Notes under the pieces: model-generated
The model's database searches: none
Seen by the model: the letters and a program-made list of their open reading frames with translations, nothing else
What the model was told of the DNA's origin: nothing
Assembly (NCBI RefSeq): GCF_023168405.1
Contig: NZ_AP025285.1
Coordinates: 990,001-1,054,000, forward strand
Source: Leptogranulimonas caecicola
GTDB taxonomy: Bacteria > Actinomycetota > Coriobacteriia > Coriobacteriales > Atopobiaceae
Length of the DNA stretch: 64,000 nucleotides
Direction of reading: 5' to 3'
Position numbers and translations under genes: made by a program
Shown here: positions 3,821 to 63,711 of the stretch, in pieces
Numbering within the stretch: the stretch's first letter is position 1
Layout: every line of letters starts with the position of its first letter

Positions 3821-4705
3821 CTACACCTTCTCGGGCACATACTTGCCCAAAAGGCCCGAAGGCTTGATGAGCAGCACAATGATGAGTACGGCAAATACCA
3901 CAGCGTCAGCCAGCTGCGTGCCAATGTAGGCCTTGGCGAAGATCTCAATTATGCCGAGAAGCACGCCGCCTAACACGGCACCGGGAATCGAGCCGATACC
4001 ACCAAACACGGCAGCGGTAAAAGCCTTGATGCCGGGCATGGCACCAGTGGTGGGCATGAGGGTGGGATAGGAACTGCATAGGAGTACGCCTGCTACTGCC
4101 GCAAGGCCAGAGCCAATGGCGAAAGTGGTAGAGATGGTGGTATCCACGTTGATGCCCATGAGTCGAGCGGCACCGGGATCCTCAGAGCAGGCGCGCATGG
4201 CCTTGCCCATCTTGGTTTTGGCGGTGAACAGGCCCAACACGACCATGATGATCACACTTGCGCCGATGGTGATGAGAGTCTCAGCAGAGATATTGAGCTG
4301 TCCATCGAAGAGCTGAAGGCTCGGCAAACCTGCGGCAATGGAGGGGAACACCTTGGGATTGGAGCCCCAGATGAGCAGCGCCAGGTTTTGCAGCAGATAG
4401 GAAACGCCAATAGCGGTGATGAGCACCGTAAGGCTTGGGGACTGGCGCAGTGGCTTGTAGGCTACGCGCTCGATAAGAATGCCCAACAGAGTGCAGCCGC
4501 AAATGGCGATGAGGACGCAGATAAGGGGGTTCATCCCCAGGTAGAACAGGGTCATGAACGCGATGTAGCCACCAACCATGATGACGTCGCCGTGGGCAAA
4601 GTTGAGCATCTTCGCAATGCCGTAGACCATGGTGTAGCCCAAAGCGATAATGGCGTACACACTGCCTAAGCTTATGCCGTTGATGAGGTTGGTCAAAAAC
4701 TCCAT
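3821..4705 (-). CDS. livH: Branched-chain amino acid ABC transporter permease LivH
   Basis: A 294-residue membrane permease. It has the LivH opening NLINGISLGSVYAIIALGYT, the conserved MLNFAHGDVIMVGGY and the C-terminal FGGIGSIPGAVLGG. ATG at 4705 is chosen over an ATG 5 codons upstream because AAGGGAGG lies directly before it. It pairs with LivM in the inner membrane. It is the first gene of livHMGF and is separated from livJ by a terminator hairpin, so the binding protein can be made in excess. A motif shared with the livJ and dppA promoters lies about 125 bp upstream. Confidence 0.95.
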   Translation of the reverse strand: MEFLTNLINGISLGSVYAIIALGYTMVYGIAKMLNFAHGDVIMVGGYIAFMTLFYLGMNPLICVLIAICGCTLLGILIERVAYKPLRQSPSLTVLITAIGVSYLLQNLALLIWGSNPKVFPSIAAGLPSLQLFDGQLNISAETLITIGASVIIMVVLGLFTAKTKMGKAMRACSEDPGAARLMGINVDTTISTTFAIGSGLAAVAGVLLCSSYPTLMPTTGAMPGIKAFTAAVFGGIGSIPGAVLGGVLLGIIEIFAKAYIGTQLADAVVFAVLIIVLLIKPSGLLGKYVPEKV

Positions 4706-4780: not shown

Positions 4781-4795
4781 GGGTTTCTCGGCAAG
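4781..4795 (+). repeat. TTTCTCGGCA element (GGGTTTCTCGGCAAG)
   Basis: Full 15-bp consensus copy in the gap between livH and the livJ terminator. Confidence 0.85.
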
Positions 4796-15540: not shown

Positions 15541-16851
15541 ATGGCCAAGGGCTCTGCCAAGAAGCAACGCAAGTTTGCCCAAGCTCAGGCGCGAAAACTC
15601 GCCGCTTCCCAAGCGGTACCCAGCTCCTGTGACGTGCTTCTCGTAGGAGCGGGTGCCTCAGGGCTTCTCTGCGCCCTTGAAGCATCTTCTTTGGCTGCCG
15701 AGAAAAGCATCCTTCTCATGGAGGCCAAGCCCATCTTAGGCGCGCCCATTCTGGCCACAGGCAATGGTCGTTGCAACTTTTGTCATGAGCCCTTGGAATC
15801 CTCTGCCTACAACCATCCTTCCTGGATGGAAGAGTTTTTCTCGGCAGCAGCGAGGCTGTGGCCCAAGTCCACGCCCAGTGAGCTGGTACAGGATTACTTT
15901 GGCGAGCTAGGGCTTTTGTCCACCAGCCATGAGGGGAGGCTCTATCCCCGCAGCTTGGTAGCCGCATCGGTACGAGATCTGCTGTTAGCGCAGCTAGAGG
16001 CTTCCACGGTAAAGGTTGCCACCCTGCGAGATGTGGTGGCCGTCGAGCCTTGCGAGCAGGGTTTTTGCGTGCGCTATCAGGAGCGGTTCCGGGAAGACCC
16101 TTTGGCTCCAGAGGGGTGGGCACGGCGCAGCCTTCATGCTCGCCGTGTCGTATTGGCCACTGGCGGAGATACCTTGAGCGCCATAGAGGGCCTCGATCTG
16201 CCTTTGGTACCCTGTGAGCCTGTGCTTTGTCCTGTAGAGATCGAGACAGAGCTGTGCCAACGGTTGGACGGCCATAGGGCCAAGGCTCGTGTGAGAGCCT
16301 ACAGCCCTTGTTCAGAACCGCTTTTTGACGAATACGGCGAGGTTCTTTTTAGGTCCTCGGACTCCTCTCAAAAGGGGGTGCTTTCGGGCATCGTGGCGTA
16401 CAACCTTTCGCGTCTGGTAACTCCAGGTGACTCAGTGGTGCTCGACCTTTTGCCAGAATGCACCCACGAGCAGGTGGCAGCCCTGCTTATGCGCGGGGGC
16501 TCCTACAACCCCCGTCATCTGGACGGCGCCCTAGACCCTGCTGTCGCCCACGCACTGCTTCCACAGGCAATCGATGACGACGGCGCTGCGACGTTGTTTT
16601 CCGCGGTGGAAGCGGTTAAATCTGCCACCTTTTGCGTGAGCGGCAAAGCCTTTGTCCAATCTGCCCAGGTGAGTCGAGGGGGATTGAGCCTAGATGCGCT
16701 CACCCTCCCATCTTTAGAAGTAAGCGCCTATCCAGGCCTCTATGCGCTTGGCGAGGCGCTGGACATCGACGGGGCCTGTGGAGGCTACAATCTGGGTTTT
16801 GCCTGGCTCTCTGGACTCGTCTGTGGCCACGCATTGGCGCAGAAGGACTAA
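15541..16851 (+). CDS. HI0933/BaiN-family NAD(P)/FAD-dependent flavoprotein
   Basis: A 436-residue flavoprotein. The Rossmann motif VGAGASGLLCALEA is near residue 36, and ILATGNGRCNFCHE near 75 is the diagnostic HI0933-family sequence. The C-terminal FAD-contact segment GEALDIDGACGGYNLGFAW is also present. The first 25 residues are Lys/Gln/Ala-rich and atypical. Its ATG abuts the mrp stop codon and GAGGAG lies 6 nt upstream, so translation is coupled. The family includes BaiN, proposed for bile-acid 7-dehydroxylation, but most members have no assigned reaction, so no substrate is given. Confidence 0.85.
   Translation: MAKGSAKKQRKFAQAQARKLAASQAVPSSCDVLLVGAGASGLLCALEASSLAAEKSILLMEAKPILGAPILATGNGRCNFCHEPLESSAYNHPSWMEEFFSAAARLWPKSTPSELVQDYFGELGLLSTSHEGRLYPRSLVAASVRDLLLAQLEASTVKVATLRDVVAVEPCEQGFCVRYQERFREDPLAPEGWARRSLHARRVVLATGGDTLSAIEGLDLPLVPCEPVLCPVEIETELCQRLDGHRAKARVRAYSPCSEPLFDEYGEVLFRSSDSSQKGVLSGIVAYNLSRLVTPGDSVVLDLLPECTHEQVAALLMRGGSYNPRHLDGALDPAVAHALLPQAIDDDGAATLFSAVEAVKSATFCVSGKAFVQSAQVSRGGLSLDALTLPSLEVSAYPGLYALGEALDIDGACGGYNLGFAWLSGLVCGHALAQKD
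15696..15705 (-). repeat. TGCCGAGAAA element inside the HI0933-family gene
   Basis: Exact 10-mer in coding DNA, read as AAEKS between the two FAD motifs. Confidence 0.7.
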
Positions 16852-19101: not shown

Positions 19102-19114
19102 TGCCGAGAAACCC
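19102..19114 (-). repeat. TGCCGAGAAACCC element downstream of uvrB
   Basis: Exact inverted-orientation copy 9 bp after the uvrB stop codon, with a further upstream match to the AAG extension. Confidence 0.85.
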
Positions 19115-21465: not shown

Positions 21466-22611
21466 TTAAGGCTGGCTGCCGTCATCTTGAAGCCCTTGAG
21501 GATAGAGCTCCCTATAATGGTCTAAGGCAGACTGCACCTTTTCCAGATAGATGCGTGTCTCTGGATACTGGATGGCATCCGAGAAGCTGTCGCCCTCCCC
21601 TTCCCAACCTGAGACGGCGTTGGGGCCCGCATTGTAAGAGGCAATGGCGCGCTCCTCAGAGCCGGTGGCCTTCATGAGCGATGCCAGATAGGCGGTGCCA
21701 TAGGCGATATTGGTCTCGGGATCCATGAGGTCTGTGGGATCGTAACGAGAGCTATCCACATAGCCTCTACGTGCCAGATCGCGTGCAGTCTCGGGCATCA
21801 CTTGCATAAGTCCTTGAGCCCCCACCGAACTCTCAGCATTGGGCACCCAATTGGACTCCGCCTTGATCACCGATGCCACCAGCGTAGGATCGATGCCGTA
21901 GCGCTCGGCCTGGGCCGTGATTTGCTGGGCATAATGCACAGGATAGAGCCAGTGGCGAAGTGTGGCACCCGAGAGATGGCTTAGCGCCACAGAGGCCACC
22001 GCCATCACCACAAGACAGAGGATGGGCAGAGTGCGGAACCAGCGCCAAAAGCGGAGCCTCTTGGCAGCCAAAGGCTCTCGTTGCCGAGAAACGCTTCCCT
22101 TCGCGATCCCATAGCCCTCATAGGCGCTGGCACTCTTAGGCGGCCTGCCAAAAGGGCCGTGCGCGCTGGTTTGGGATGCGTGTTGGCCAAAGGCGTCGCG
22201 GTTGTCCAGAGCATTGCGCGCCACCTCTGCTCGAGCAACATCCACCGCTGGGGACGCCTGATGAGAGACTGGCGTTGACGGATCTACGTGAGGGCGGCCA
22301 TGAGATGAAGCCCCATAGCCCATGAGGGAAGTGTCCACTACCGTGGCATCGGTTGGAGCGGGAGGGCTTCCCGCGTTGATCATAGAGGTAGCGTCCAAGG
22401 TTTCCGGCGCGCGTACCAGCTGGGTGGCATCGGCGTCGGCAAGAACAGTTGGCTGCTCTGACATCATTTGAGTGGTGTCAGCGTTCTCTTGCGGGTGAGA
22501 TGGCGGCGCCTCTCGGCGAGGAAGGTCCTCCCAGCCGTCCACCTCTTTTGAGAGATAGGGGTTTTCGCCTTGAGGAGTCCAAGGGTGGGTAGTGTGTGGC
22601 TGATCGCTCAT
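21466..22611 (-). CDS. Membrane-anchored lytic transglycosylase (SLT domain)
   Basis: About 381 residues. The first 190 or so are hydrophilic and Pro/Ser/Thr-rich. A membrane segment follows (LPILCLVVMAVASVALSHL), then an SLT domain with catalytic Glu in IKAESNW, and GAQGLMQVMPETA and IASYNAGPNAV motifs. It cleaves peptidoglycan glycan strands outside the membrane. The ATG at 22611 overlaps the coaE stop by 4 bp (ATGA), so an upstream in-frame ATG is unlikely. The long cytoplasmic N-terminus resembles that of MurJ in this window. One copy of the TGCCGAGAAA element lies in the N-terminal coding region at 22082. Confidence 0.88.
   Translation of the reverse strand: MSDQPHTTHPWTPQGENPYLSKEVDGWEDLPRREAPPSHPQENADTTQMMSEQPTVLADADATQLVRAPETLDATSMINAGSPPAPTDATVVDTSLMGYGASSHGRPHVDPSTPVSHQASPAVDVARAEVARNALDNRDAFGQHASQTSAHGPFGRPPKSASAYEGYGIAKGSVSRQREPLAAKRLRFWRWFRTLPILCLVVMAVASVALSHLSGATLRHWLYPVHYAQQITAQAERYGIDPTLVASVIKAESNWVPNAESSVGAQGLMQVMPETARDLARRGYVDSSRYDPTDLMDPETNIAYGTAYLASLMKATGSEERAIASYNAGPNAVSGWEGEGDSFSDAIQYPETRIYLEKVQSALDHYRELYPQGLQDDGSQP
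22082..22091 (-). repeat. TGCCGAGAAA element in the transglycosylase gene
   Basis: Exact 10-mer in coding DNA for the non-conserved N-terminal region. Confidence 0.7.
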
Positions 22612-23789: not shown

Positions 23790-23877
23790 GAGCCCTCCTT
23801 GCATCATCTGTTGTTCTCAAGGGTTCATGCCCAACTCACCAGAAAGACTAGCAGCGCTCGCGGCTCCCTCATAAAAA

Positions 23878-23911
23878 GACGAGCCTTTGGCTTTTAAGCC
23901 TCTAGCTCGTC
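23878..23911 (-). terminator. Intrinsic terminator after the M42 peptidase
   Basis: Outer stem GACGAGC/GCTCGTC and inner stem GGCTT/AAGCC are followed on the minus strand by TTTTT. A TGCCGAGAAACCC element lies between this hairpin and the peptidase stop. Confidence 0.8.
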
Positions 23912-23933
23912 CTTTGCACTTGCTCGTCTTTCC

Positions 23934-23946
23934 TGCCGAGAAACCC
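23934..23946 (-). repeat. TGCCGAGAAACCC element after the M42 peptidase
   Basis: Lies between the peptidase stop and its terminator hairpin. Confidence 0.85.
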
Positions 23947-23995: not shown

Positions 23996-25075
23996 CTAGC
24001 AGGACATGATAAAGGCCTCGGTGACCTTCTGGAGCTTCTCCATGGCATCGATATGGGTGATCTCGCGGCCGTGACTGTTGCGCGTCAAGGGACCCATGGC
24101 CGCCGCAGCCACATTGTTGGATGCGATGGTCGATCCCATGGCGTCAGTGGAATACCTCAGGCATGCCTGGACCTCAGGACGCTCGCCCAAGGCCGTCACG
24201 CCTGCGTGGATGAGCGCATTGGTGAGATCCCAGTCATAGGGACCATGATAGTCATCTGCGATAACCGCCACGTCATGCTCGGTACCCGGGTAGTCCGGGC
24301 CCATAAGGGCGATGTCCAGGGATATGTAGCTCTCGACGTCATCAGGCAGGTAGGTGCCCCCAAAGCCCACCTCCTCGTAATAGGGGAACGCGAAGAGGAT
24401 GTCGCAGGCAGGAACGACGGGTTTCTCGGCAAGCCATTTGAGAACCCCCAAGAGCACTGCGACACATGCTTTGTCGTCTATGAAGCGGCTTAGGATGAAG
24501 CCGTTGTCGTGAATCTCCAGATGGGGGTCGAAGGCCACCACGGCGCCGGGTGTGATGTCTAGGGCACGCGCCTCGTCGGCGTTGGTGACGTCTTCCAACA
24601 GGTGGACACGGATGGTCTCATCATCGCGCTTGCGCTCCTTGGCGTCTGCCCAGGCGTGGACCGAATGGTGGTCAAGCTCGATGACGCCTTGCACCATGGT
24701 ATCGAAGCGCGTGTAGACGCGGCAGCTCACGCCCTCCAAAGCGGCGTAGTTGAGCCCGCCCAGCTGACGCACGCGCAGGGTGCCGTCATCCTCGATGCCG
24801 GAGATGGCCATGCCGATGGTATCCAGATGCGCTCCCAAGCATACGGTGCGGGAGCGGTCCTTGCCTGCCACTCGCACATAGAAGGTATGTTTGCGGTCAT
24901 GGAAGCCATGATATCCCATGGCTTCCACCAGCTCCTCCATCACCGGCTGCATGAGCTTGTAGTAGCCCACCGGCGAGTCGCAGGCGATGAGCTTGGCCAT
25001 AGTCTCAAGCAGATAGTCTTTGTCGGCTTCAAAAATCACAGCGGATCCCCCATCTCTCACTAGCCGGGTCTTCAT
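23996..25075 (-). CDS. M42-family metallo-aminopeptidase
   Basis: A 359-residue protein with M42 features: LGAHLDTIGMAISGIEDDG (metal-binding His and Asp), SRFIDDKACVAVLLG (bridging Asp), YYEEVGFGG (catalytic Glu-Glu) and the C-terminal HGREITHIDAMEKL with metal-binding His. The family comprises cobalt- or zinc-dependent cytoplasmic aminopeptidases that trim short peptides. The ATG at 25075 lies 16 bp after pepT. A GTG start about 12 codons downstream behind GGGGGA is an alternative. Together with PepT and the Dpp importer nearby it points to peptide catabolism. Confidence 0.88.
   Translation of the reverse strand: MKTRLVRDGGSAVIFEADKDYLLETMAKLIACDSPVGYYKLMQPVMEELVEAMGYHGFHDRKHTFYVRVAGKDRSRTVCLGAHLDTIGMAISGIEDDGTLRVRQLGGLNYAALEGVSCRVYTRFDTMVQGVIELDHHSVHAWADAKERKRDDETIRVHLLEDVTNADEARALDITPGAVVAFDPHLEIHDNGFILSRFIDDKACVAVLLGVLKWLAEKPVVPACDILFAFPYYEEVGFGGTYLPDDVESYISLDIALMGPDYPGTEHDVAVIADDYHGPYDWDLTNALIHAGVTALGERPEVQACLRYSTDAMGSTIASNNVAAAAMGPLTRNSHGREITHIDAMEKLQKVTEAFIMSC
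24419..24433 (+). repeat. GGGTTTCTCGGCAAG element inside the M42 peptidase gene
   Basis: Full 15-bp consensus in coding DNA, read as LAEKPV. Confidence 0.85.
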
Positions 25076-28189: not shown

Positions 28190-28219
28190 AAGTCCAGCTC
28201 CACTACCCAGATACAGCTA

Positions 28220-28257
28220 CAGGGGCCTTTCCTTTGAGGGAAAAGGCCCCTGTTTTT
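28220..28257 (+). terminator. Intrinsic terminator after the first peptide-binding protein gene
   Basis: Stem CAGGGGCCTTT/AAAGGCCCCTG, 11 bp, is followed by TTTTT. A GGGTTTCTCGGCAAG element starts 6 bp further on. Confidence 0.93.
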
Positions 28258-28263
28258 ATGGAT

Positions 28264-28278
28264 GGGTTTCTCGGCAAG
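28264..28278 (+). repeat. GGGTTTCTCGGCAAG element between convergent genes
   Basis: Full 15-bp consensus, 6 bp after the terminator T-run of the first peptide-binding protein gene. Confidence 0.9.
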
Positions 28279-36679: not shown

Positions 36680-37002
36680 CGCTTGGCGCAGGCTTGTCGT
36701 GCCATGTTGATGAAGCGCTCGGTCAAAATCTTGAATTCCTCGGCGCTCATGAGCTGATCCTCTGCATGCACTAACAGGATGTCTACTGGCACCGGCTCGC
36801 CTTGAGCTGCCTGGGTGATCAGTTGGGCATGAACCGTATGGCCTGCCGAGAAGAACCCGTCCCCTTCTGCAGCTTTTGTTCGAACCTGCTCGATATCTCC
36901 TGCAGAGGCCAAGTCCATGGCCTCTATGTAGCAACTTCTGGCCATTCCCACTTGAGAGATGATCTCGAAACAGGACAGATGCAGCTGTTCGTTTACTTCC
37001 AT
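36676..37002 (-). CDS. Orphan PTS IIA component, lactose/cellobiose type
   Basis: A 108-residue all-helical IIA of the Lac/Chb family from ATG at 37002: HLSCFEIISQVGMARSCYIEAM, then a helix with HTVHAQLITQAAQGE, then LLVHAEDQLMSAEEF. The His in VHAED is the expected phosphorylation site and the Asp the trimer metal ligand. The usual second His (HAQDH) is Gln here. The open frame extends upstream to 37134, but length and family start favour 37002; the ribosome site is weak. No IIB or IIC is adjacent, so it may be a remnant of a cellobiose or lactose PTS operon once controlled by the broken lacI. Confidence 0.75.
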   Translation of the reverse strand: MEVNEQLHLSCFEIISQVGMARSCYIEAMDLASAGDIEQVRTKAAEGDGFFSAGHTVHAQLITQAAQGEPVPVDILLVHAEDQLMSAEEFKILTERFINMARQACAKR

Positions 37003-39752: not shown

Positions 39753-39762
39753 TGCCGAGAAA
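39753..39762 (-). repeat. TGCCGAGAAA element fused to the M18 gene terminator
   Basis: Forms the U-tract side of the terminator, 64 bp upstream of the ABC exporter start. Confidence 0.85.
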
Positions 39763-39796
39763 AGACCCCATCGGCCAGGGCAGCCGATGAGGTCTT
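39762..39796 (-). terminator. Intrinsic terminator of the M18 aminopeptidase gene
   Basis: A 14-bp stem with one mismatch (AAGACCCCATCGGC / GCCGATGAGGTCTT) is followed on the minus strand by TTTTCTCGGCA. The U-tract is thus part of a copy of the recurrent element. Confidence 0.85.
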
Positions 39797-39822: not shown

Positions 39823-41226
39823 CTAGGCCTCAGGAGAGCTCAAGAAGGCTTTGTAGCCCTTGAACGCCTCGAAGACATCGGCCTTATTCACCACTTCCCA
39901 GAGGGAGTGCATGGAGAGCACCGCCACACCAGAATCGATGACCTTCATGCCGTAGCGAGCGAGGATGAAGGCGATGGTGCCACCACCACCCGCATTTACA
40001 CGGCCCAGCTCACAGGTTTGGAAGGCTACCTGGGCGTTGTCCATGATGGCACGAATTTGAGCAACGTACTCGGCATCAGCATCGTTTGACCCGGTCTTAC
40101 CGCGTGAGCCGGTGAACTTGTTAAAGCAAAGGCCGCGGCCCAAGAAAGCCGAGTTCTTCTCCTCAAAGCGATCGGCATAGGCAGGGTCGAAGCCCGCAGA
40201 GACGTCGCTGGAGAGCATACGGGAATTAGCCAGGGCACGGTGCAGCTTGAGAGAGCCGCCCTCCCCTGCCAGCTCCATGAGCTCCGCCAGGGCATTCTCA
40301 AAATAAAGTGCCTGCATGCCGGTGGCGCCTACAGAACCGATCTCCTCTTTGTCTACCAGCAGGCAGGCACTGGTGCGAGAAGGAGCCTCCACTGCCAGCA
40401 TTGCTTCCAGCGAGGTATAGGCACATACGCGGTCATCCTGGCCATAGCCTAGGATCATCGAGCGGTCAAAGCCCATTTCGCGTGCCGGGCCAGCAGGAAC
40501 CACTTCGAGTTCTGCAGAAAGCAGATCCTCTTCTGCGATGTCGTAGCGCTCCCCAAGAATGGAAAGCAGCAAATTTTTGACAGCTTCGCCCTTCTCGGCA
40601 TCTTTGTCGCCCTCTTCCACCAGAGGACGACCGCCTACGATGATGTCAAGGTTCTCGTGATCCACAGCTTCGGCATGGGTCTTTTTCATTTGATCTTGGG
40701 CTAGATGGATGAGGATGTCGGAGATGCAAAAGACCGGGTCCTGAGGATCCTCTCCCACGCATACATTCACTACCGAGCCATCTTTTTTGGCCACCACGCC
40801 ATGGATGGCCAGAGGGGTTGCCACCCAAAGGCTGCTCTTGAGGCCACCATAGTAATGGGTGTCCATAAAGGCCAGATCTGCCTTCTCATAGACGGGGTTT
40901 TGCTTGATGTCCAAGCGAGGAGAATCCACATGGGCGCCCAGGATATTGAGGCCAGACTCTAAAGGCTCTGTGCCGAGACAAAAGAGCGTGAGGGCCTTGC
41001 CGCGAGTGTTCACATAGAACTTGTCTCCGGCCGCTACTGGCTGGCCTGCTGCTACCGCCTCAGCCAAATCTTTATAACCGGCATCCTTGGCCATTTTCAC
41101 TGCAGCAGCAACACAATCACGCTCAGTCTTGTTTTCAGAGATAAACCTGCGATAGCGCTCGTTAAGAGCCTCGAGACACGCAAGACTATCTGTGTCGTAG
41201 GAATTCCACGCGCAAGGACGTTCCAT
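39823..41226 (-). CDS. M18-family aminopeptidase
   Basis: A 467-residue aminopeptidase I-type protein. It has the M18 sequences LGAHVDSPRLDIKQNP (first metal His-x-Asp), DDRVCAYTSLEAML (bridging Asp), LLVDKEEIGSVGATG (Glu pair) and the C-terminal GVAVLSMHSLWEVVNKADVF (metal His). These cytoplasmic zinc peptidases release N-terminal, often acidic, residues from peptides and form large tetrahedral assemblies. AAAGGA lies 9 nt before the ATG. It is monocistronic between two terminators. Confidence 0.92.
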   Translation of the reverse strand: MERPCAWNSYDTDSLACLEALNERYRRFISENKTERDCVAAAVKMAKDAGYKDLAEAVAAGQPVAAGDKFYVNTRGKALTLFCLGTEPLESGLNILGAHVDSPRLDIKQNPVYEKADLAFMDTHYYGGLKSSLWVATPLAIHGVVAKKDGSVVNVCVGEDPQDPVFCISDILIHLAQDQMKKTHAEAVDHENLDIIVGGRPLVEEGDKDAEKGEAVKNLLLSILGERYDIAEEDLLSAELEVVPAGPAREMGFDRSMILGYGQDDRVCAYTSLEAMLAVEAPSRTSACLLVDKEEIGSVGATGMQALYFENALAELMELAGEGGSLKLHRALANSRMLSSDVSAGFDPAYADRFEEKNSAFLGRGLCFNKFTGSRGKTGSNDADAEYVAQIRAIMDNAQVAFQTCELGRVNAGGGGTIAFILARYGMKVIDSGVAVLSMHSLWEVVNKADVFEAFKGYKAFLSSPEA

Positions 41227-46903: not shown

Positions 46904-46937
46904 AAACCCATCCCTCCCATAAGGAAGGATGGGGTTT
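46904..46937 (-). terminator. Intrinsic terminator of gdhA
   Basis: AAACCCATCC pairs with GGATGGGGTTT (one bulge), with TTTTCTT following on the minus strand. The distal arm is part of a GGGTTTCTCGGCA element. Confidence 0.75.
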
Positions 46938-46944
46938 CTCGGCA
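46932..46944 (+). repeat. GGGTTTCTCGGCA element at the gdhA terminator
   Basis: Its GGGTTT forms part of the terminator stem. Confidence 0.88.
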
Positions 46945-46954
46945 GATCGAAGGA

Positions 46955-48310
<1,356 letters not shown>

Positions 48311-48798: not shown

Positions 48799-49827
48799 AT
48801 GGCTACAAGCAAGTTGGGGCGCACGCTGGTGATTTGCAATCCCGCCGCCCAAAGTGGCAAGGGTGCGCAAGGTGGCGCCTTTGTAAAGCGCACATTGGAT
48901 GCCTATTCCAGCGCCGTATCTGGTTACAGCTATTATGAAACCACCTCGCCTGGCGACGGCCTGCGCAAAGCCAAGGCTGCCAAAAACTACGATACTGTGA
49001 TCGCTGTGGGTGGCGATGGCCTCATCCACGAGATCGTCAACGGCTTGATGGCCATCCCTGCCGAGAAACGCCCATGCCTAGGCTTGGTGCCTATGGGTTC
49101 TGGCAACGACTATGCGCGCACCATGCATCTGGCATTGAACGACCCCATGGCAAGCCTAGGTCAGACTATCAACGGCACTCCCGTAAAGCTTGACTTGGGC
49201 CTTGTGAACGGCGTCTATTTTTGTGAGACCTGCTCTTTTGGCCTGGATGCCGCCATTGCCCTCGACACCATGAAAACCCGTGTTCCCGGAGGCCCCCACG
49301 GCACCCGCCTCTTCGCTCAAAGCGGCTACCGCATCTTCAAGAACTTCACTCACGGCTACAAATATAAGGCCACGGTGGATGGCTCATCCTTCTCGGGTGA
49401 AGAGATCGCGTTCGCCTGTCAAGTGGGCCCCACCTATGGGGGCGGTTACCATATCTGCCCCAAGGCCTCCCCGGTAGATGGACTACTGGACCTGTGCTAC
49501 AACACCAAGATTCCTTCCAAACCAGCCATTTTGGCGCTTTTCACAGGTGCGCGCATGGGTCTCCACGCCAAGAGCTCTGCTATCGCCTTCAAGCAGTTCA
49601 AGAAGCTCAAGGTCACCTTTGAAAAACAGCCGCCTTGCCAGGTAGACGGCGAGCCGCTTGAGGGCAGCACCTTTGAGATCACCTCAGTGCCTGCCGTCCT
49701 CGAAGTGCTGGTGCCAAATTCCAGCCAATGGAATCCCAACCCCACCAAGGTGGATCGTCCTTCTGTGACAGACGGTCTTTTGGGCACCAAGCTTGCCGAT
49801 AAACTCCGCAACTCCAACCAGGGATAA
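48799..49827 (+). CDS. Diacylglycerol kinase-family lipid kinase
   Basis: A 342-residue DAGK_cat protein. NPAAQSGKG is at the N-terminus, then AVGGDGLIHEIVNGLM (the GGDGT-like nucleotide loop, with Leu replacing Thr), GLVPMGSGNDYARTMHL, and a C-terminal beta-rich domain ending CQVDGEPLEGSTFEI. The family phosphorylates diacylglycerol, undecaprenol-like or sphingoid lipids at the membrane; the substrate here is not determinable. ATG at 48799 has AAGGAG 4 nt upstream. Confidence 0.88.
   Translation: MATSKLGRTLVICNPAAQSGKGAQGGAFVKRTLDAYSSAVSGYSYYETTSPGDGLRKAKAAKNYDTVIAVGGDGLIHEIVNGLMAIPAEKRPCLGLVPMGSGNDYARTMHLALNDPMASLGQTINGTPVKLDLGLVNGVYFCETCSFGLDAAIALDTMKTRVPGGPHGTRLFAQSGYRIFKNFTHGYKYKATVDGSSFSGEEIAFACQVGPTYGGGYHICPKASPVDGLLDLCYNTKIPSKPAILALFTGARMGLHAKSSAIAFKQFKKLKVTFEKQPPCQVDGEPLEGSTFEITSVPAVLEVLVPNSSQWNPNPTKVDRPSVTDGLLGTKLADKLRNSNQG
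49059..49068 (-). repeat. TGCCGAGAAA element in the lipid kinase gene
   Basis: Exact 10-mer in coding DNA, read as PAEKR in a loop after the GGDG motif. Confidence 0.7.
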
Positions 49828-54447: not shown

Positions 54448-54897
54448 CTAAAGACGTTCGTCGATGGTGTCTGCGATCTTCTCGGCATCATCGCTGGTGA
54501 GAAGCACCTCACAAAAGTCCGAAGACATGAGACCTACCGCGAGCTTGGAGAGCAGGCGCAGATAAGGCTCGCCGGCGCTGGAATCAGGGATGAGCAGGGC
54601 GATGGCGCAGGTGACCGGCTGCTTATCCATGGTCTCCCAGTCAATGGGATGAGTGAAGCGTAGTACCATGACCAGCGGCTTCTGTACTGCCGAAGACTTG
54701 GCATGAGGAATGGCGATGCCGCTCACCATGCCCGTGGAACCCTCTGCTTCGCGGGTGTTGAGCGCCTGCACAAGCAACGGGGCATCGGTGGCATAGCCCA
54801 GCGAAACGGCCTCTCGAGCAATGAACTCCATAACCTCTTCCTGCGTGGTCGCAGGATTATGAAGAAAGACGTGATCTGCCGTAATGAAGTCGCTCAT
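54448..54897 (-). CDS. PTS fructose-type IIA component
   Basis: About 149 residues of a PTS_EIIA_2 (fructose/mannitol/Ntr) domain, with the active His in VSGIAIPHAKSSAV and the helix EVMEFIAREAVSLG. ATG at 54897 is chosen by family length; an ATG 4 codons earlier has AGAAGGG almost touching it. No IIB or IIC fructose domain is in the window, so the membrane component must be encoded elsewhere. It probably receives phosphate from the HPr encoded two genes downstream. Confidence 0.9.
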   Translation of the reverse strand: MSDFITADHVFLHNPATTQEEVMEFIAREAVSLGYATDAPLLVQALNTREAEGSTGMVSGIAIPHAKSSAVQKPLVMVLRFTHPIDWETMDKQPVTCAIALLIPDSSAGEPYLRLLSKLAVGLMSSDFCEVLLTSDDAEKIADTIDERL

Positions 54898-55629: not shown

Positions 55630-58347
55630 TTACTTGGCTTCGGCCCAAGTGTTGCCCCAAGAAACGTCGGCTACCAAAGGAACCCGCAGGTCAACCACCG
55701 ATTCCATAGTGGCTTTCACCAATGCCGCAACCTCCTCGAGCTCTGTCTCGGGCACCTGCAAATCCAGCTCGTCGTGGATTTGCATAATGAGTTCGCTTTG
55801 GTAATTGCCCTGGTTAAGCGCCTGTTCCACGCGACTCATAGCTATTTTGATGATATCGGCGGCACTCCCCTGCATAGGATGGTTCATAGCAGTGCGTTCA
55901 GCGGCCGATCTCACCATGGCATTACGCGCCCCAATGTCCGGCACCAGGCGCCTACGACCCCACATGGTGCTTACAAACCCCAGCTTACGAGCCTCTTCCA
56001 CCGTTTCATCCAAATAAGCGCGAACCCCTGGATAGGCACGGTAATAGGAGTCGATGATCTCCTGAGCTTCCTTCTGAGGAATGTGAAGGGTTTGTGCCAA
56101 GCCATAGCCCTGCTGCCCGTAGACAATGCCAAAGTTCACTGCTTTGGCCCTAGACCGCAGCGCGGGAGTCACCTCAGACACAGGCACGCCAAAGACGCGA
56201 GCCGCAGTCTCTGCGTGGAAATCCTCCCCTTCCACGAAAGCCTTTATAAGGTGCTCGTCGCCCGAGAGATGCGCCAGCAGACGCAGTTCGATTTGCGAGT
56301 AGTCCACCGCCAGGAACTTCCAGCCCTGAGGCACGGTGAAGGCGGAGCGCACGCGTCGGCCCTCTTCAGACTTCACGGGAATGTTCTGCAAGTTGGGATC
56401 TGAGCTGGAGATGCGCCCCGTAGCCGTCACCGTCTGGTTGAAAGTGGTATGGATGCGCCCGTCAGCCCGAATCTCTTGGGGCAATGCCGCCAGATACGTG
56501 CGTGCAATCTTGGATTTCTCACGCCACTCGATGACCTGAGCCACCACCGGATAGGTTTGCGCCAGCTCCTCAAGCACCTTGGCATTGGTGGAATAGTACC
56601 CGCGCTTGGTTTTCTTAAGCCCTGCCGTAGGCAACCCCAGACCATCAAACAGCACATTAGACAATTGCGAGGGAGAGCCGATGTTGAACTCTTGACCCGC
56701 AGTCTCGTAAATCTGCTGGGCCAGGATTGATAGTTGGGCCTGCAGTTGTGCGTCCTGCTCGGCAAAGACGGAAGCGTCTGCATGCATGCCAGTACGCTCC
56801 ATCTGTGCCAAGACGGGCAACAGGGGCATCTCGATCTCAAAGAAGCAGGGCTTGGACCCCGTTTTGTCCAAAGCTACCGATAAGGGCTCCACGCAGCGCT
56901 GGGCCACCAATGCCGAGAAGGGCGCATCCTTCACATCCTGAGGGCGGGAGAGCTCCAGCCACTCTTGGGCGAGGTCGTCGGGGGCGTATTCGGTCTTGGT
57001 GGAGTCTAGCAGGTAAGCAGCCACCCCGCAGTCGAAGATGGCATCGGGAGCCACCCGGTCGATGTCTAGAGCGGCTGGCTGCGAAGAGTCCATGGGATAG
57101 ACCTGGTGAATGAGATCTTTTAGGGCGCAGGAAGCCACCCTGTGAGAGCTCAGGGCATCCACCAGACGATCGGTGGCCTCGGCGCCCTCGAAGCGCAGCA
57201 GATGAGTGGGCGTGGCTACCCAGAGTCGTGAAGAAGGCCCAAAGAGGCTCTGAGTCTCTGGCACTTCCAGCGCACAGCCTAACCAGGCACCCTCAGTTAT
57301 CGCCTTTTGCCACGCCTCCTGGGCAGCCTCGCCCTCCAGAGTCTCAGGGACCTCCAGGGTCAGGGAGGCCTCAGAGACCTGCCCGCCGTCGGCCAAGCTC
57401 AAAAGGCGCGTGGCAATGGACGTGAAGCCCAAGGCAGTCAGCGCCTCTTTGGCAGTTGGCACATCAAAGGTGGGAAATCTGGTCTCTGCAAGGTCCACAT
57501 CCAGAGGGGCGTCGGTGCGGATGGTCGCCACCTTGCGCGAGAGCAACGCGTCCTCTTTGTGGGCTCGCAAGTTTTCGCCCATCTTACCCTTGACCTCGTC
57601 TGCATGAGCCAGCACCTCATCCAAGGTGCCATAGGTGGCCAGCAGCTGCTGGGCCTTCTTGGGACCAATGCCGGGTACGCCTGGGATATTGTCTGAGCTA
57701 TCGCCTTTAAGGCCATAGAAGTCCGGCACCAGCTCTGGTGTCACGCCGCCATACAAATCTTCTACTGCGGCGGGAGTCATTATCTGCACATCACTCATGC
57801 CCTTGCGGGTGGAGACTATCTGCACGTGCTCATTGGAGAGCTGGTACATGTCGCGGTCGCCGGTGACCAGAAGCATGTCATAACCTTCGGCAGCTCCTTG
57901 GCGAGCCAGCGTACCCAGAAGGTCGTCGCCCTCCCAGCCTTCCAGCTCGAAGACCGGCACGCTTAAAGCAGCCAGCACATCTTTGATCTCGCCAAACTGA
58001 GGCGCCAGATCGGGGTCCATGGGCGGTCTCTGGGCTTTATAGCTGGGGAGCATCTCCATACGCACTTTGGGCTTGCCCTTGTCAAAGCACACCGCGACGC
58101 CCCAGGGTTTGAAGTCCTCCACCAGCTTGAGAAACATGGAGAGAAAGCCAAAGACGGCGTTGGTGGGCACCCCTTGAGGAGAGGTCATCTGGGCAGATAT
58201 GGCGTGAAAGGCCCTATGCATGAGGGAGTTGCCGTCTACCACCGCCACTTTGGGGCGACCGTCTTGAGGAAGCGAAGAGGAGCCTGCAGGAGATGCGTGG
58301 CTTGAAGTCTGAGTAGGGCTGGTGCTACCCGTGTTTGATCCAGTCAT
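55630..58347 (-). CDS. polA: DNA polymerase I
   Basis: A 905-residue protein. The N-terminal 5'-3' exonuclease (VVDGNSLMHRAFHAI, LVTGDRDMYQL) and C-terminal polymerase are complete: motif A VDYSQIELRLLAHLSG, motif B RSRAKAVNFGIVYG, motif C QIHDELDLQVP. The middle domain lacks the 3'-5' exonuclease acidic residues: where DxE is expected it reads GCALEVPET. Proofreading is therefore probably absent, as in several Gram-positive and Thermus enzymes. The first 28 residues are a Ser/Thr-rich extension. AAAGG lies 8 nt before the ATG. Confidence 0.97.
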   Translation of the reverse strand: MTGSNTGSTSPTQTSSHASPAGSSSLPQDGRPKVAVVDGNSLMHRAFHAISAQMTSPQGVPTNAVFGFLSMFLKLVEDFKPWGVAVCFDKGKPKVRMEMLPSYKAQRPPMDPDLAPQFGEIKDVLAALSVPVFELEGWEGDDLLGTLARQGAAEGYDMLLVTGDRDMYQLSNEHVQIVSTRKGMSDVQIMTPAAVEDLYGGVTPELVPDFYGLKGDSSDNIPGVPGIGPKKAQQLLATYGTLDEVLAHADEVKGKMGENLRAHKEDALLSRKVATIRTDAPLDVDLAETRFPTFDVPTAKEALTALGFTSIATRLLSLADGGQVSEASLTLEVPETLEGEAAQEAWQKAITEGAWLGCALEVPETQSLFGPSSRLWVATPTHLLRFEGAEATDRLVDALSSHRVASCALKDLIHQVYPMDSSQPAALDIDRVAPDAIFDCGVAAYLLDSTKTEYAPDDLAQEWLELSRPQDVKDAPFSALVAQRCVEPLSVALDKTGSKPCFFEIEMPLLPVLAQMERTGMHADASVFAEQDAQLQAQLSILAQQIYETAGQEFNIGSPSQLSNVLFDGLGLPTAGLKKTKRGYYSTNAKVLEELAQTYPVVAQVIEWREKSKIARTYLAALPQEIRADGRIHTTFNQTVTATGRISSSDPNLQNIPVKSEEGRRVRSAFTVPQGWKFLAVDYSQIELRLLAHLSGDEHLIKAFVEGEDFHAETAARVFGVPVSEVTPALRSRAKAVNFGIVYGQQGYGLAQTLHIPQKEAQEIIDSYYRAYPGVRAYLDETVEEARKLGFVSTMWGRRRLVPDIGARNAMVRSAAERTAMNHPMQGSAADIIKIAMSRVEQALNQGNYQSELIMQIHDELDLQVPETELEEVAALVKATMESVVDLRVPLVADVSWGNTWAEAK

Positions 58348-61975: not shown

Positions 61976-62896
61976 ATGGCCGCCGCTCTTTTCAGCGCCA
62001 TCAACCAGGGCGTCCTCTGGGGCGTAATGGTGTTGGGTGTCTATATCACCTATAAGTTGTTAAACATCGCCGACCTCTCTGTGGACGGCACCTTCGCCCT
62101 AGGCGGCTGCGTCGCGGCAACAGCCATGGTGACCGGCGGCATGGATCCCTGGCTGGCTGTGCTTTTGGCCTTTTTGGCAGGAGCCGTAGCCGGTGGCTGC
62201 ACTGGCCTCATGCATGCGCTGCTCAACATCCCAGCTATCCTGGCGGGCATTCTCACCATGATTGGCCTGTGGTCTGTGAACCTGCGCATCATGGGCAAGT
62301 CCAACACTCCCCTGCTCAACACCCGCACAATCTATAGCGACGTGGCAGACCTCACCGGCCTTCCCCGCGACGTGGTGGTGCTTCTGGTGGCTGTGGCCAT
62401 TGCTGCCGCCCTGGTAGGCCTTCTCTACTGGTTCTTTGGCACCGAGATTGGCAGCTCGCTGCGTGCGACCGGCGACAATCCCGACATGGCAAAAGCCCTC
62501 GGCGTGGACACTCGCTTCACCATCCTTTTGGCCCTCATGCTCTCCAACGGCCTGGTCTCCATGTCTGGCGCGCTGGTGTGCCAGAGCCAAAAGTACGCCG
62601 ACGTAGGTATGGGCACCGGCGCCATCGTCATTGGCCTTGCCGCCATTGTCATAGGCGAAGCCCTGGGGCGTCTGACCCCTGGCAAGCTGCGCTCCTTTGG
62701 CAGCCGCCTCATCGCGGCCGTGGTGGGTTCTGCCGCCTACTTCCTCATTCGCGCCATCGTGCTCCAGTTTGGCCTGGACGCCAACGACATGAAGCTGCTC
62801 ACCGCCCTCATCGTGGTCGTCGCCCTAGGCGTCCCCTATCTGGCTGGCCGGGTCAAGCAGCGCAGCTCCTACCAGCGGGAAGGGGTGGATGACTAA
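61976..62896 (+). CDS. ABC transporter permease (TrpY-like, BPD_transp_2)
   Basis: A 306-residue protein with about eight membrane segments: NQGVLWGVMVLGVYITYKLL, then IADLSVDGTFALGGCVAAT, a motif shared with LivH-type and COG4120 permeases, GSSLRATGDNPDMAKALGVD and the C-terminal VVVALGVPYLAGRVKQR. ATG at 61976 has AAAGGGG 5 nt upstream. The stop overlaps the ATPase start (TAATG). Confidence 0.9.
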   Translation: MAAALFSAINQGVLWGVMVLGVYITYKLLNIADLSVDGTFALGGCVAATAMVTGGMDPWLAVLLAFLAGAVAGGCTGLMHALLNIPAILAGILTMIGLWSVNLRIMGKSNTPLLNTRTIYSDVADLTGLPRDVVVLLVAVAIAAALVGLLYWFFGTEIGSSLRATGDNPDMAKALGVDTRFTILLALMLSNGLVSMSGALVCQSQKYADVGMGTGAIVIGLAAIVIGEALGRLTPGKLRSFGSRLIAAVVGSAAYFLIRAIVLQFGLDANDMKLLTALIVVVALGVPYLAGRVKQRSSYQREGVDD

Positions 62897-63711
62897 TGAC
62901 CGCTCAAAACCAACCCATGCTTCAGCTCAAGAACGTCTCCAAGACCTTTAACCGCCATACGGTGACCGAGAAACGCGCCCTCCACAAATGCAACCTCACC
63001 GTGGATCGTGGCGACTTCATCACAATCATCGGCGGCAACGGCGCCGGCAAGTCCACACTCCTCAATATCATCGCCGGCATGTTCTTGCCTGACGGCGGCA
63101 CCATCACCCTGGATGGCCAAGACGTCACCTTGCTCTCAGAGCCCCAACGAGCCAAGTACCTGGGCCGCGTCTTCCAAGACCCCATGCGCGGCACCGCGGC
63201 CGACATGCAGATCGCCGAGAACCTGGCTATGGCCTATCGCCGCGGCAAGCGCCGCACCCTGGCCTGGGGCGTCACCAAAACCGAGCGCGCCCTCTTCCAG
63301 GAGCGCCTCGCCGGTTTAGGCTTGGGACTAGAGAACCGTCTCAGCGACAAGGCCGGACTCTTGTCGGGAGGTCAACGCCAGGCGTTGACCCTGCTCATGG
63401 CAACCCTCCAAAAGCCCGATCTGCTGCTCTTGGACGAGCCCACCGCCGCTTTGGACCCCTCCACCGCCACCAAGGTGTTAGGGCTTATCCGCACCATCGT
63501 GGACTCCGAGCAGCTCACCACCTTCATGGTGACCCACAACATGGCCGACGCCCTCTCCATGGGCAACCGTCTCATCATGATGTGGGAAGGCAAGATCATC
63601 TACGACGTCAGAGGTGCCGAGAAGGACGCCCTCACTGTGGAGGACCTGCTCAAGAAGTTCGAAGAGGAGTCCGGCAGCGCCTTGGACAACGACCGCATGC
63701 TTCTGGGTTAG
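62896..63711 (+). CDS. ABC transporter ATP-binding protein (TrpZ-like, COG1101)
   Basis: A 271-residue ATPase with Walker A GGNGAGKSTLLNI, the Q-loop region YLGRVFQDPMRGTAADMQIAE (diagnostic of COG1101), signature LSGGQRQALTLLMA, Walker B LLLLDEPTAALDPS and H-loop VTHNMADAL. It energises the permease encoded just upstream, completing a three-gene importer. Confidence 0.93.
   Translation: MTAQNQPMLQLKNVSKTFNRHTVTEKRALHKCNLTVDRGDFITIIGGNGAGKSTLLNIIAGMFLPDGGTITLDGQDVTLLSEPQRAKYLGRVFQDPMRGTAADMQIAENLAMAYRRGKRRTLAWGVTKTERALFQERLAGLGLGLENRLSDKAGLLSGGQRQALTLLMATLQKPDLLLLDEPTAALDPSTATKVLGLIRTIVDSEQLTTFMVTHNMADALSMGNRLIMMWEGKIIYDVRGAEKDALTVEDLLKKFEEESGSALDNDRMLLG

Follow-up and report, generated by a model that had tools for sequence, protein, structure and literature searches.

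A 13-bp motif of Leptogranulimonas caecicola is most likely a DNA uptake sequence and only occasionally a terminator tail

The genome of Leptogranulimonas caecicola carries a 13-bp, non-palindromic element, GNNYTTCTCGGCA, which takes the form GNNYTTCTCG(G/C)CA across relatives. The element is an occasional terminator tail but not in general a terminator, and judging from sequence comparisons its most likely role is that of a DNA uptake sequence. The uptake reading is well supported because of the copy number, the enrichment within genes beyond codon usage, the conservation and the lineage variants of the motif, and not because of its use in terminators. The pattern is that of the uptake class: one short motif in large excess on both strands, enriched and conserved independently of codon usage and gene sense, and differing between lineages in the manner of dialects.

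The consensus GNNYTTCTCGSCA is present in 628 copies in the whole genome (2.0 Mb), against 6 for the same pattern read backwards, and only 66 copies have a base other than G at position -3. For TTTCTCGGCA, the whole-genome counts are 332 and 4 for the backward control. This excess is far beyond chance. Other statistics for this genome come from the window, which is the whole 64-kb stretch of DNA that was analysed, together with 40 further stretches (L001-L020 and L117-L136), making up 864 of 2001 kb; the first 464 kb form a smaller sample. Genes were called by a simple custom script (84% coding). For two relatives, the samples cover 480 kb in the sister species G028 and 480 of 1544 kb in G023.

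In the 864 kb sample, position 0 of the core is C in 158 copies, T in 154, A in 13 and G in 7, and other single changes to the core are mostly represented by fewer than 25 copies, the largest number being 42. The G at -3 is found in 95% of T copies (n=153) and 92% of C copies (n=158), and in 82-95% of copies in three sets from G023. It is also common to the near-match YTTATCGGCA (65 copies, 86% with G at -3), whereas the GC variant, which is rare in this genome (8 copies, 38%), does not clearly share it. In the 464 kb sample, 39 of 70 copies of TTTCTCGGCA lie in the 15% of bases that are intergenic. When C and T copies are taken together (YTTCTCGGCA), 107 of 312 are intergenic in the 864 kb and about two thirds fall within called reading frames. 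A different intergenic word, CTACTAAGTA, was seen with its complement in 11 copies in the 464 kb, all intergenic; it overlaps TACTAAGTAC and GCCTACTAAG and may be a small repeat or a site for a regulator.

The window includes 17 copies of YTTCTCGGCA, and the copy at the M18 aminopeptidase terminator is the only one without the conserved G at -3. Positions and strands are as follows.

3952-3964, minus strand: motif copy in a gene, C variant
4781-4793, plus strand: motif copy, intergenic
15696-15708, minus strand: motif copy in a gene, inverted partner of the copy at 15834
15834-15846, plus strand: motif copy in a gene, inverted partner of the copy at 15696
19102-19114, minus strand: motif copy, intergenic
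22082-22094, minus strand: motif copy in a gene
23934-23946, minus strand: motif copy 22 nt from a bidirectional hairpin at 23877-23912
24419-24431, plus strand: motif copy in a gene, antisense
28264-28276, plus strand: motif copy with the core starting 14 nt past a hairpin at 28219-28253
36844-36856, minus strand: motif copy in a called gene, C variant
39753-39765, minus strand: motif copy at the M18 terminator, TCTTTTCTCGGCA, no G at -3
40588-40600, plus strand: motif copy in the M18 gene, antisense, C variant
46932-46944, plus strand: motif copy at the gdhA 3' end, GGGTTTCTCGGCA
49059-49071, minus strand: motif copy in a gene, antisense
54475-54487, plus strand: motif copy in a gene, C variant
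56911-56923, minus strand: motif copy in a gene, C variant
63615-63627, minus strand: motif copy in the called gene 62896-63711, C variant, not aligned to G028

In the 464 kb sample, genes hold 105 occurrences of the ten-base core, on both strands, where 40 synonymous-codon shuffles gave an expectation of about 9. Codon usage as the origin of the in-gene copies in this genome was ruled out by these shuffles. At 66 L. caecicola sites compared with G028, 22 of 726 core positions differ (8 at the free C/T position), against 490 of 5544 flanking positions (3.0% vs 8.8%). The reciprocal comparison over 58 sites found changes at 14 of 638 core positions (9 at C/T) and 425 of 4872 flanking positions. 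The core changes about 3-fold less than its flanks, and as sites were chosen for matching the motif in one species, core changes are undercounted, by an estimated amount of up to about half, which the difference exceeds. Control words in this comparison had only 0-3 sites each, too few to be informative.

A survey of 317 genomes of the order Coriobacteriales revealed about 140 to 630 copies of GNNYTTCTCGSCA in sampled genomes of genera g1, g2, g15, g27, g33 and g34. In these motif-rich genera, copies with G at -3 are well above those with another base (e.g. 415 vs 17 in G084). In g9, g17, g25, g30 and most genomes of other families, counts are low and those with and without the G are similar. 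Outliers are G141, with 559 G and 105 non-G copies, and g82, with 94 to 200 copies. The GG variant accounts for 623 of 628 copies in L. caecicola, 543 of 559 in G141, 80 of 384 in G023 and 102 of 415 in G084, the rest in the last two genomes being GC; many genomes are mixed rather than pure. Such G/C variants around a common core resemble, by analogy, the dialects of the neisserial DNA uptake sequence (DUS).

G141 belongs to another family of the order (f3), and its 559 copies are almost all GG. Only 13 copies are present in each of two other f3 genomes; those of G141 may reflect transfer or independent retention. Genomes G091, G105 and G108 carry 95-154 copies of TTTCTCGGCA in genus g33, where TTTCTCGCCA mostly outnumbers TTTCTCGGCA, and these counts suggest recent shifts in preference.

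A short, non-palindromic and frequent sequence that is spread across the whole sampled chromosome and conserved in genes could instead be a site for chromosome maintenance or recombination that is read inside the cell, as Chi, KOPS or matS are. This is unlikely. A Chi or KOPS site is expected to be polar, but the motif has no replication-strand bias, with 148 copies on the leading and 145 on the lagging strand in the 864 kb sample when origin and terminus are inferred from the switch in gene orientation. An assignment by GC skew (172 and 140) was too noisy, and the gene-orientation switch was used in its place. There is also no concentration of copies near the inferred terminus of the sampled chromosome, and a maintenance site does not sit well with the large GG/GC shifts between lineages or with the low counts in other genera with similar genome size.

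Conserved high copy number and lineage variants would also be favoured if the motif marked self DNA for another system, for example as a recognition site for methylation or defence. However, restriction targets are usually avoided, not enriched, and as the motif is enriched this explanation is very unlikely.

The uptake reading had initially been tied to transcription termination, and the initial annotation proposed that the T-tract of the terminator at the M18 gene is the element itself, and that the distal arm of the stem at gdhA is the GGGTTT of the element. An intrinsic terminator (a stable hairpin and U-tract after a gene) is predicted at both genes and at a few sites elsewhere. The features at these two 3' ends, besides the motif copies above, are as follows.

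39763-39796, minus strand: predicted intrinsic terminator hairpin of the M18 gene, -24.8 kcal/mol, with the motif core as U-tract
39823-41226, minus strand: M18 aminopeptidase gene (Pfam PF02127, Peptidase_M18, E 2.9e-86)
46904-46934, both strands: bidirectional hairpin after gdhA, one arm of which ends in the GGG of the motif
46955-48286, minus strand: gdhA, glutamate dehydrogenase gene (Pfam PF00208, E 2.5e-90)

At M18 the proposal was borne out. The predicted hairpin, at 39763-39795, leads straight into TTTTCTCGGCA, and the motif core is about 65 nt beyond the M18 stop. In G028, the stem differs by a compensatory change of C-G to T-A (two substitutions) and by a change of G-U to A-U, and the motif core is intact. 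Because the stem covaries between the sister species, there is good evidence for a functional RNA hairpin at this position. Among ten M18 3' ends from this genome and relatives (L106 was left out), the motif is in the hairpin tail only in L. caecicola and G028, and not in other genera; two further 3' ends have a one-mismatch copy nearby but outside the best hairpin.

At gdhA, the proposal holds in part. Hairpins are predicted at 46907-46934 on the plus strand (-16.9 kcal/mol) and 46907-46933 on the minus strand (-20.4 kcal/mol), and the GGG is at the base of an arm, but the TTT is in neither the stem nor the tail of the gdhA terminator. The U-tract of the gdhA transcript, which is on the minus strand, is TTTTCTTG, and the TTTCTC of the motif forms a tail on the plus strand only. 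G028 has one G fewer at this hairpin and keeps the motif. No exact motif copy is present in the five gdhA orthologue 3' ends examined (of 80 loci). The copies at 28264 and 23934 do sit beside terminators, as annotated, with the core 14 nt and 22 nt, respectively, from a strong hairpin.

Beyond these sites the association is weak. Terminators here are the predictions of a custom predictor, and expected numbers come from positions drawn at random in the same intergenic regions. In the 464 kb sample, 8 of 39 intergenic copies of TTTCTCGGCA are within 20 bp of a predicted terminator (7.0 expected, p 0.39), and in the 864 kb, with all terminators included, 17 of 76 are (10.8 expected, p 0.010). A T-tract that is the motif itself is a built-in detection bias, and terminators self-tailed by the motif were therefore left out, which reduces the count to 10 of 76 (8.4 expected, p 0.31). 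On this comparison with random intergenic positions, the one suggested at the outset, the claim of a general link to terminators mostly fails. C and T copies together give 21 of 107 within 20 bp (16.0 expected), or 14 of 107 (13.3 expected) without the self-tailed terminators. Within 50 bp they give 32 of 107 (24.3 expected, p 0.009), or 25 (20.6 expected, p 0.086) without them. A laxer terminator setting produces the same picture, with 26 of 107 within 20 bp (21.9 expected, p 0.14) and 41 of 107 within 50 bp (32.7 expected, p 0.011). In G023, 7 of 33 copies are near terminators, where 7.6 are expected.

Counted from the terminators, the motif core is overlapped by 7 of 144 (4.9%) in the high-confidence gene-end set of the 864 kb under an overlap rule laxer than the published one, and by 3 of 88 in G023. 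The minus-strand hairpin of gdhA, whose overlap with the motif is limited to GGG, is outside the 7. The data excerpted from PMC1852404, which were obtained with another program and overlap rule, put the share of gene-end terminators that include an uptake sequence at about 55% for Neisseria and 17-29% for Pasteurellaceae. Uptake sequences there are often inside hairpins, formed in Neisseria by inverted pairs, and the proportion of copies inside a hairpin is given as 81% for N. meningitidis and 34% for H. influenzae (PMC1852404, in part). Here the figure is 2 of 50 intergenic copies in terminator-bearing regions, or 18 of 50 if 10-nt tails are counted. Only 5 tight motif pairs (gap of ≤21 nt) were found among 312 copies, and copies in the L. 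caecicola sample are not in general arranged as in neisserial terminators, where a close inverted motif pair forms the hairpin. At L013:940-983, two motif copies that face outward, 24 nt apart, surround a hairpin-like stretch, GGCTTCC...GGAAGG, somewhat like a neisserial DUS pair.

There is a small excess of copies that adjoin hairpins. A strong hairpin ends at the TTT of the motif in 12 of 76 intergenic copies, against 6.0 +/- 2.2 when the upstream 42 nt are dinucleotide-shuffled (the largest of 120 shuffles was 12). Two decoy words score 10 of 298 and 5 of 127, random places 17 of 492 and in-gene copies 3 of 77; a third decoy word that is rich in real T-tracts has 98 of 514. On the opposite strand, a terminator-like stem starts at 5 of 76 copies; the corresponding numbers are 12 of 492 for random intergenic positions and 4 of 127 for decoys. 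A same-sense gene precedes 6 of the 12 abutting hairpins; of the others, 3 are in divergent regions, 2 are antisense and 1 has no upstream gene. The 76 intergenic copies as a whole are not biased in orientation with respect to the upstream gene (40 sense, 35 antisense and 1 without an upstream gene), and 15 are in divergent regions. C and T copies occur at 0.80 per kb in tandem regions, at 0.95 in convergent ones and at 0.82 in divergent ones, and in G023 at 0.63, 0.93 and 0.39, respectively, the last resting on 4 copies. A general placement and orientation of copies at gene ends was thus not seen in the L. caecicola sample.

The hairpins that abut the motif at M18 and gdhA, the covarying M18 stem, the excess of abutting hairpins and opposite-strand stems, and the counts within 20 bp (self-tailed terminators included) and 50 bp are what would be expected if the element were primarily a termination signal, composed of a hairpin and a TTTCTC tail. 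That it is so is nevertheless highly improbable. Few gene-end terminators overlap the core, only half of the abutting hairpins follow a same-sense gene, the density of copies in divergent regions is close to that in tandem ones, and YTTCTCGGCA copies lie within genes about two times in three. At position 0 of the T run, C and T are equally frequent, and the CGGCA half, the G at -3 and the GG/GC variants are left unexplained. Termination as the main role was rejected on the proximity, overlap and orientation counts. Recruitment into terminators is real at a few genes and uncommon, so that the original observation is partly confirmed. The further argument, that terminator use as in Neisseria and Haemophilus supports uptake, is weak in its link to terminators (7 of 144); uptake is well supported on other grounds.

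High copy number and nearby inverted pairs would also suit a selfish repeat dispersed through the genome, or the end of a miniature transposon. Either is scarcely credible for a motif that has only weak preferences for shared bases beyond about 12 bp on either side and about two thirds of its C and T copies in reading frames.

Neighbouring copies of the motif tend to be inverted. Among pairs less than 1 kb apart in the L. caecicola sample, 76 of 99 are inverted (p 8.5e-8), and beyond 1 kb the two arrangements are about even. The same holds for 23 of 27 pairs in G028, which as a close relative is not an independent confirmation, and more weakly for 22 of 32 in G023 (p 0.05). By setting, the inverted pairs are 27 of 35 within the same gene, 9 of 10 in different genes, 20 of 22 in intergenic regions and, more weakly, 20 of 32 in mixed settings. 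When orientations were redrawn with odds specific to gene position, 48.9 +/- 5.0 pairs were inverted and the largest of 2000 draws was 64, compared with the 76 observed. Two control words, with 23 direct against 16 inverted pairs and 11 against 2, showed no inverted bias, and the sites of a third were too few. Given the 1 kb range, hairpins are unlikely to be the cause. One reading is that a fragment gains from having one copy in each orientation. We know of no standard uptake model that predicts inverted neighbours, and in the part of PMC1939737 that concerns H. influenzae, the orientation of the uptake sequence is without effect on uptake.

The genome includes the genes expected for competence: a ComEA-like protein (HHH_3 and SLBB domains), ComEC (Competence and Lactamase_B domains) and DprA. 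In the part of the tad cluster that was examined, a T2SSE (Tad-type) ATPase gene adjoins T2SSF and a gene for a ParA-like protein. Transformation of the actinobacterium Micrococcus luteus requires its tad genes, according to the abstract and outline of PMC4322843, which mention no uptake sequence; that system is also actinobacterial, and its Tad (Flp) pilus has likely counterparts here in the Tad-type ATPase, T2SSF, ParA-like, comEA-like and comEC genes. ComEC is present in 137 of 140 genomes of the family Atopobiaceae, motif-poor genera included, and being near-universal the machinery does not track the motif and cannot prove an uptake role. Nor does a PilT-like ATPase correlate with the motif across the family. 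A cluster at L160:3-3669 encodes a PilT-like T2SSE ATPase together with a PAS-GGDEF protein and several small proteins, one of them with DUF4860. Close relatives of this ATPase are patchily distributed in the family, in a pattern that does not match that of the motif.

If the motif is an uptake sequence, it would need a binding protein, and uptake would depend on the motif. A surface competence protein, for which a Tad pilus subunit or ComEA are candidates, would prefer fragments that bear the motif; ComEC would then import one strand, which DprA and RecA would recombine into the chromosome. Repeated uptake of self DNA could enrich and conserve copies genome-wide by molecular drive. Use in terminators would be incidental to this, arising where a complementary C-rich arm happens to lie upstream, so that the G-rich flank and TTTCT complete a hairpin with a weak U-tract; such hairpins are predicted at the minority of intergenic copies counted above, M18 and gdhA among them.

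Like the DUS of Neisseriaceae, for which ComP is the receptor, the motif is short and non-palindromic, occurs in hundreds to thousands of copies on both strands, is enriched in intergenic regions as well as present in genes, and has single-base lineage variants resembling dialects (DUS properties as excerpted from PMC3630211 and PMC2397512). It differs in its unrelated sequence and Gram-positive actinobacterial host, in not being organised into tight inverted terminator pairs (7 of 144 terminators, against the roughly 55% excerpted above) and in an inverted bias that reaches about 1 kb. Its density is within a few-fold of that of the Pasteurellaceae uptake signal sequence (USS), with 628 copies in 2.0 Mb compared with 1471 in the H. 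influenzae genome (PMC1939737, in part). As with the USS, copies are mostly in genes and degenerate near-matches share a flank feature, but the sequence is unrelated, the flank upstream is G-rich, and the 4.9% of gene-end terminators is below the 17-29% range given in part of PMC1852404. Inverted neighbours likewise set it apart from H. influenzae, where the excerpted account describes uptake as orientation-independent (PMC1939737).

The excerpted text of a review (PMC5031613) names uptake sequences only in Pasteurellaceae and Neisseriaceae. Among the open-licence PMC matches listed, none names one in the present group in its title or the start of its abstract, and for the letters of the motif none of the matches listed is on the subject by title. 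An uptake sequence here would be new for Gram-positive bacteria, the cases described in these sources being from two Gram-negative families with outer membranes. The fuller reading is that Atopobiaceae, along with a few further lineages of the order, independently evolved a code with G/C dialects for taking up self DNA, which no Gram-positive group would have shown before, and that the reader of this code is direction-sensitive; the chances for and against it appear even. Direction sensitivity would mean that, of two copies less than about 1 kb apart, the second is retained if inverted and not if in the same orientation, each orientation counting on its own when a fragment comes in.

The rarity of terminator use here suggests that the recruitment of uptake sequences as terminators in Neisseria and Haemophilus is an optional by-product and does not define uptake sequences. 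If the uptake reading is true, this would be a third, unrelated case, and self-tagging of DNA would have evolved repeatedly and without need for an outer membrane. The dialect map would then predict gene-exchange partners among these presumably animal-associated bacteria, and the motif could serve as a tag to improve the transformation of anaerobes that are hard to engineer.
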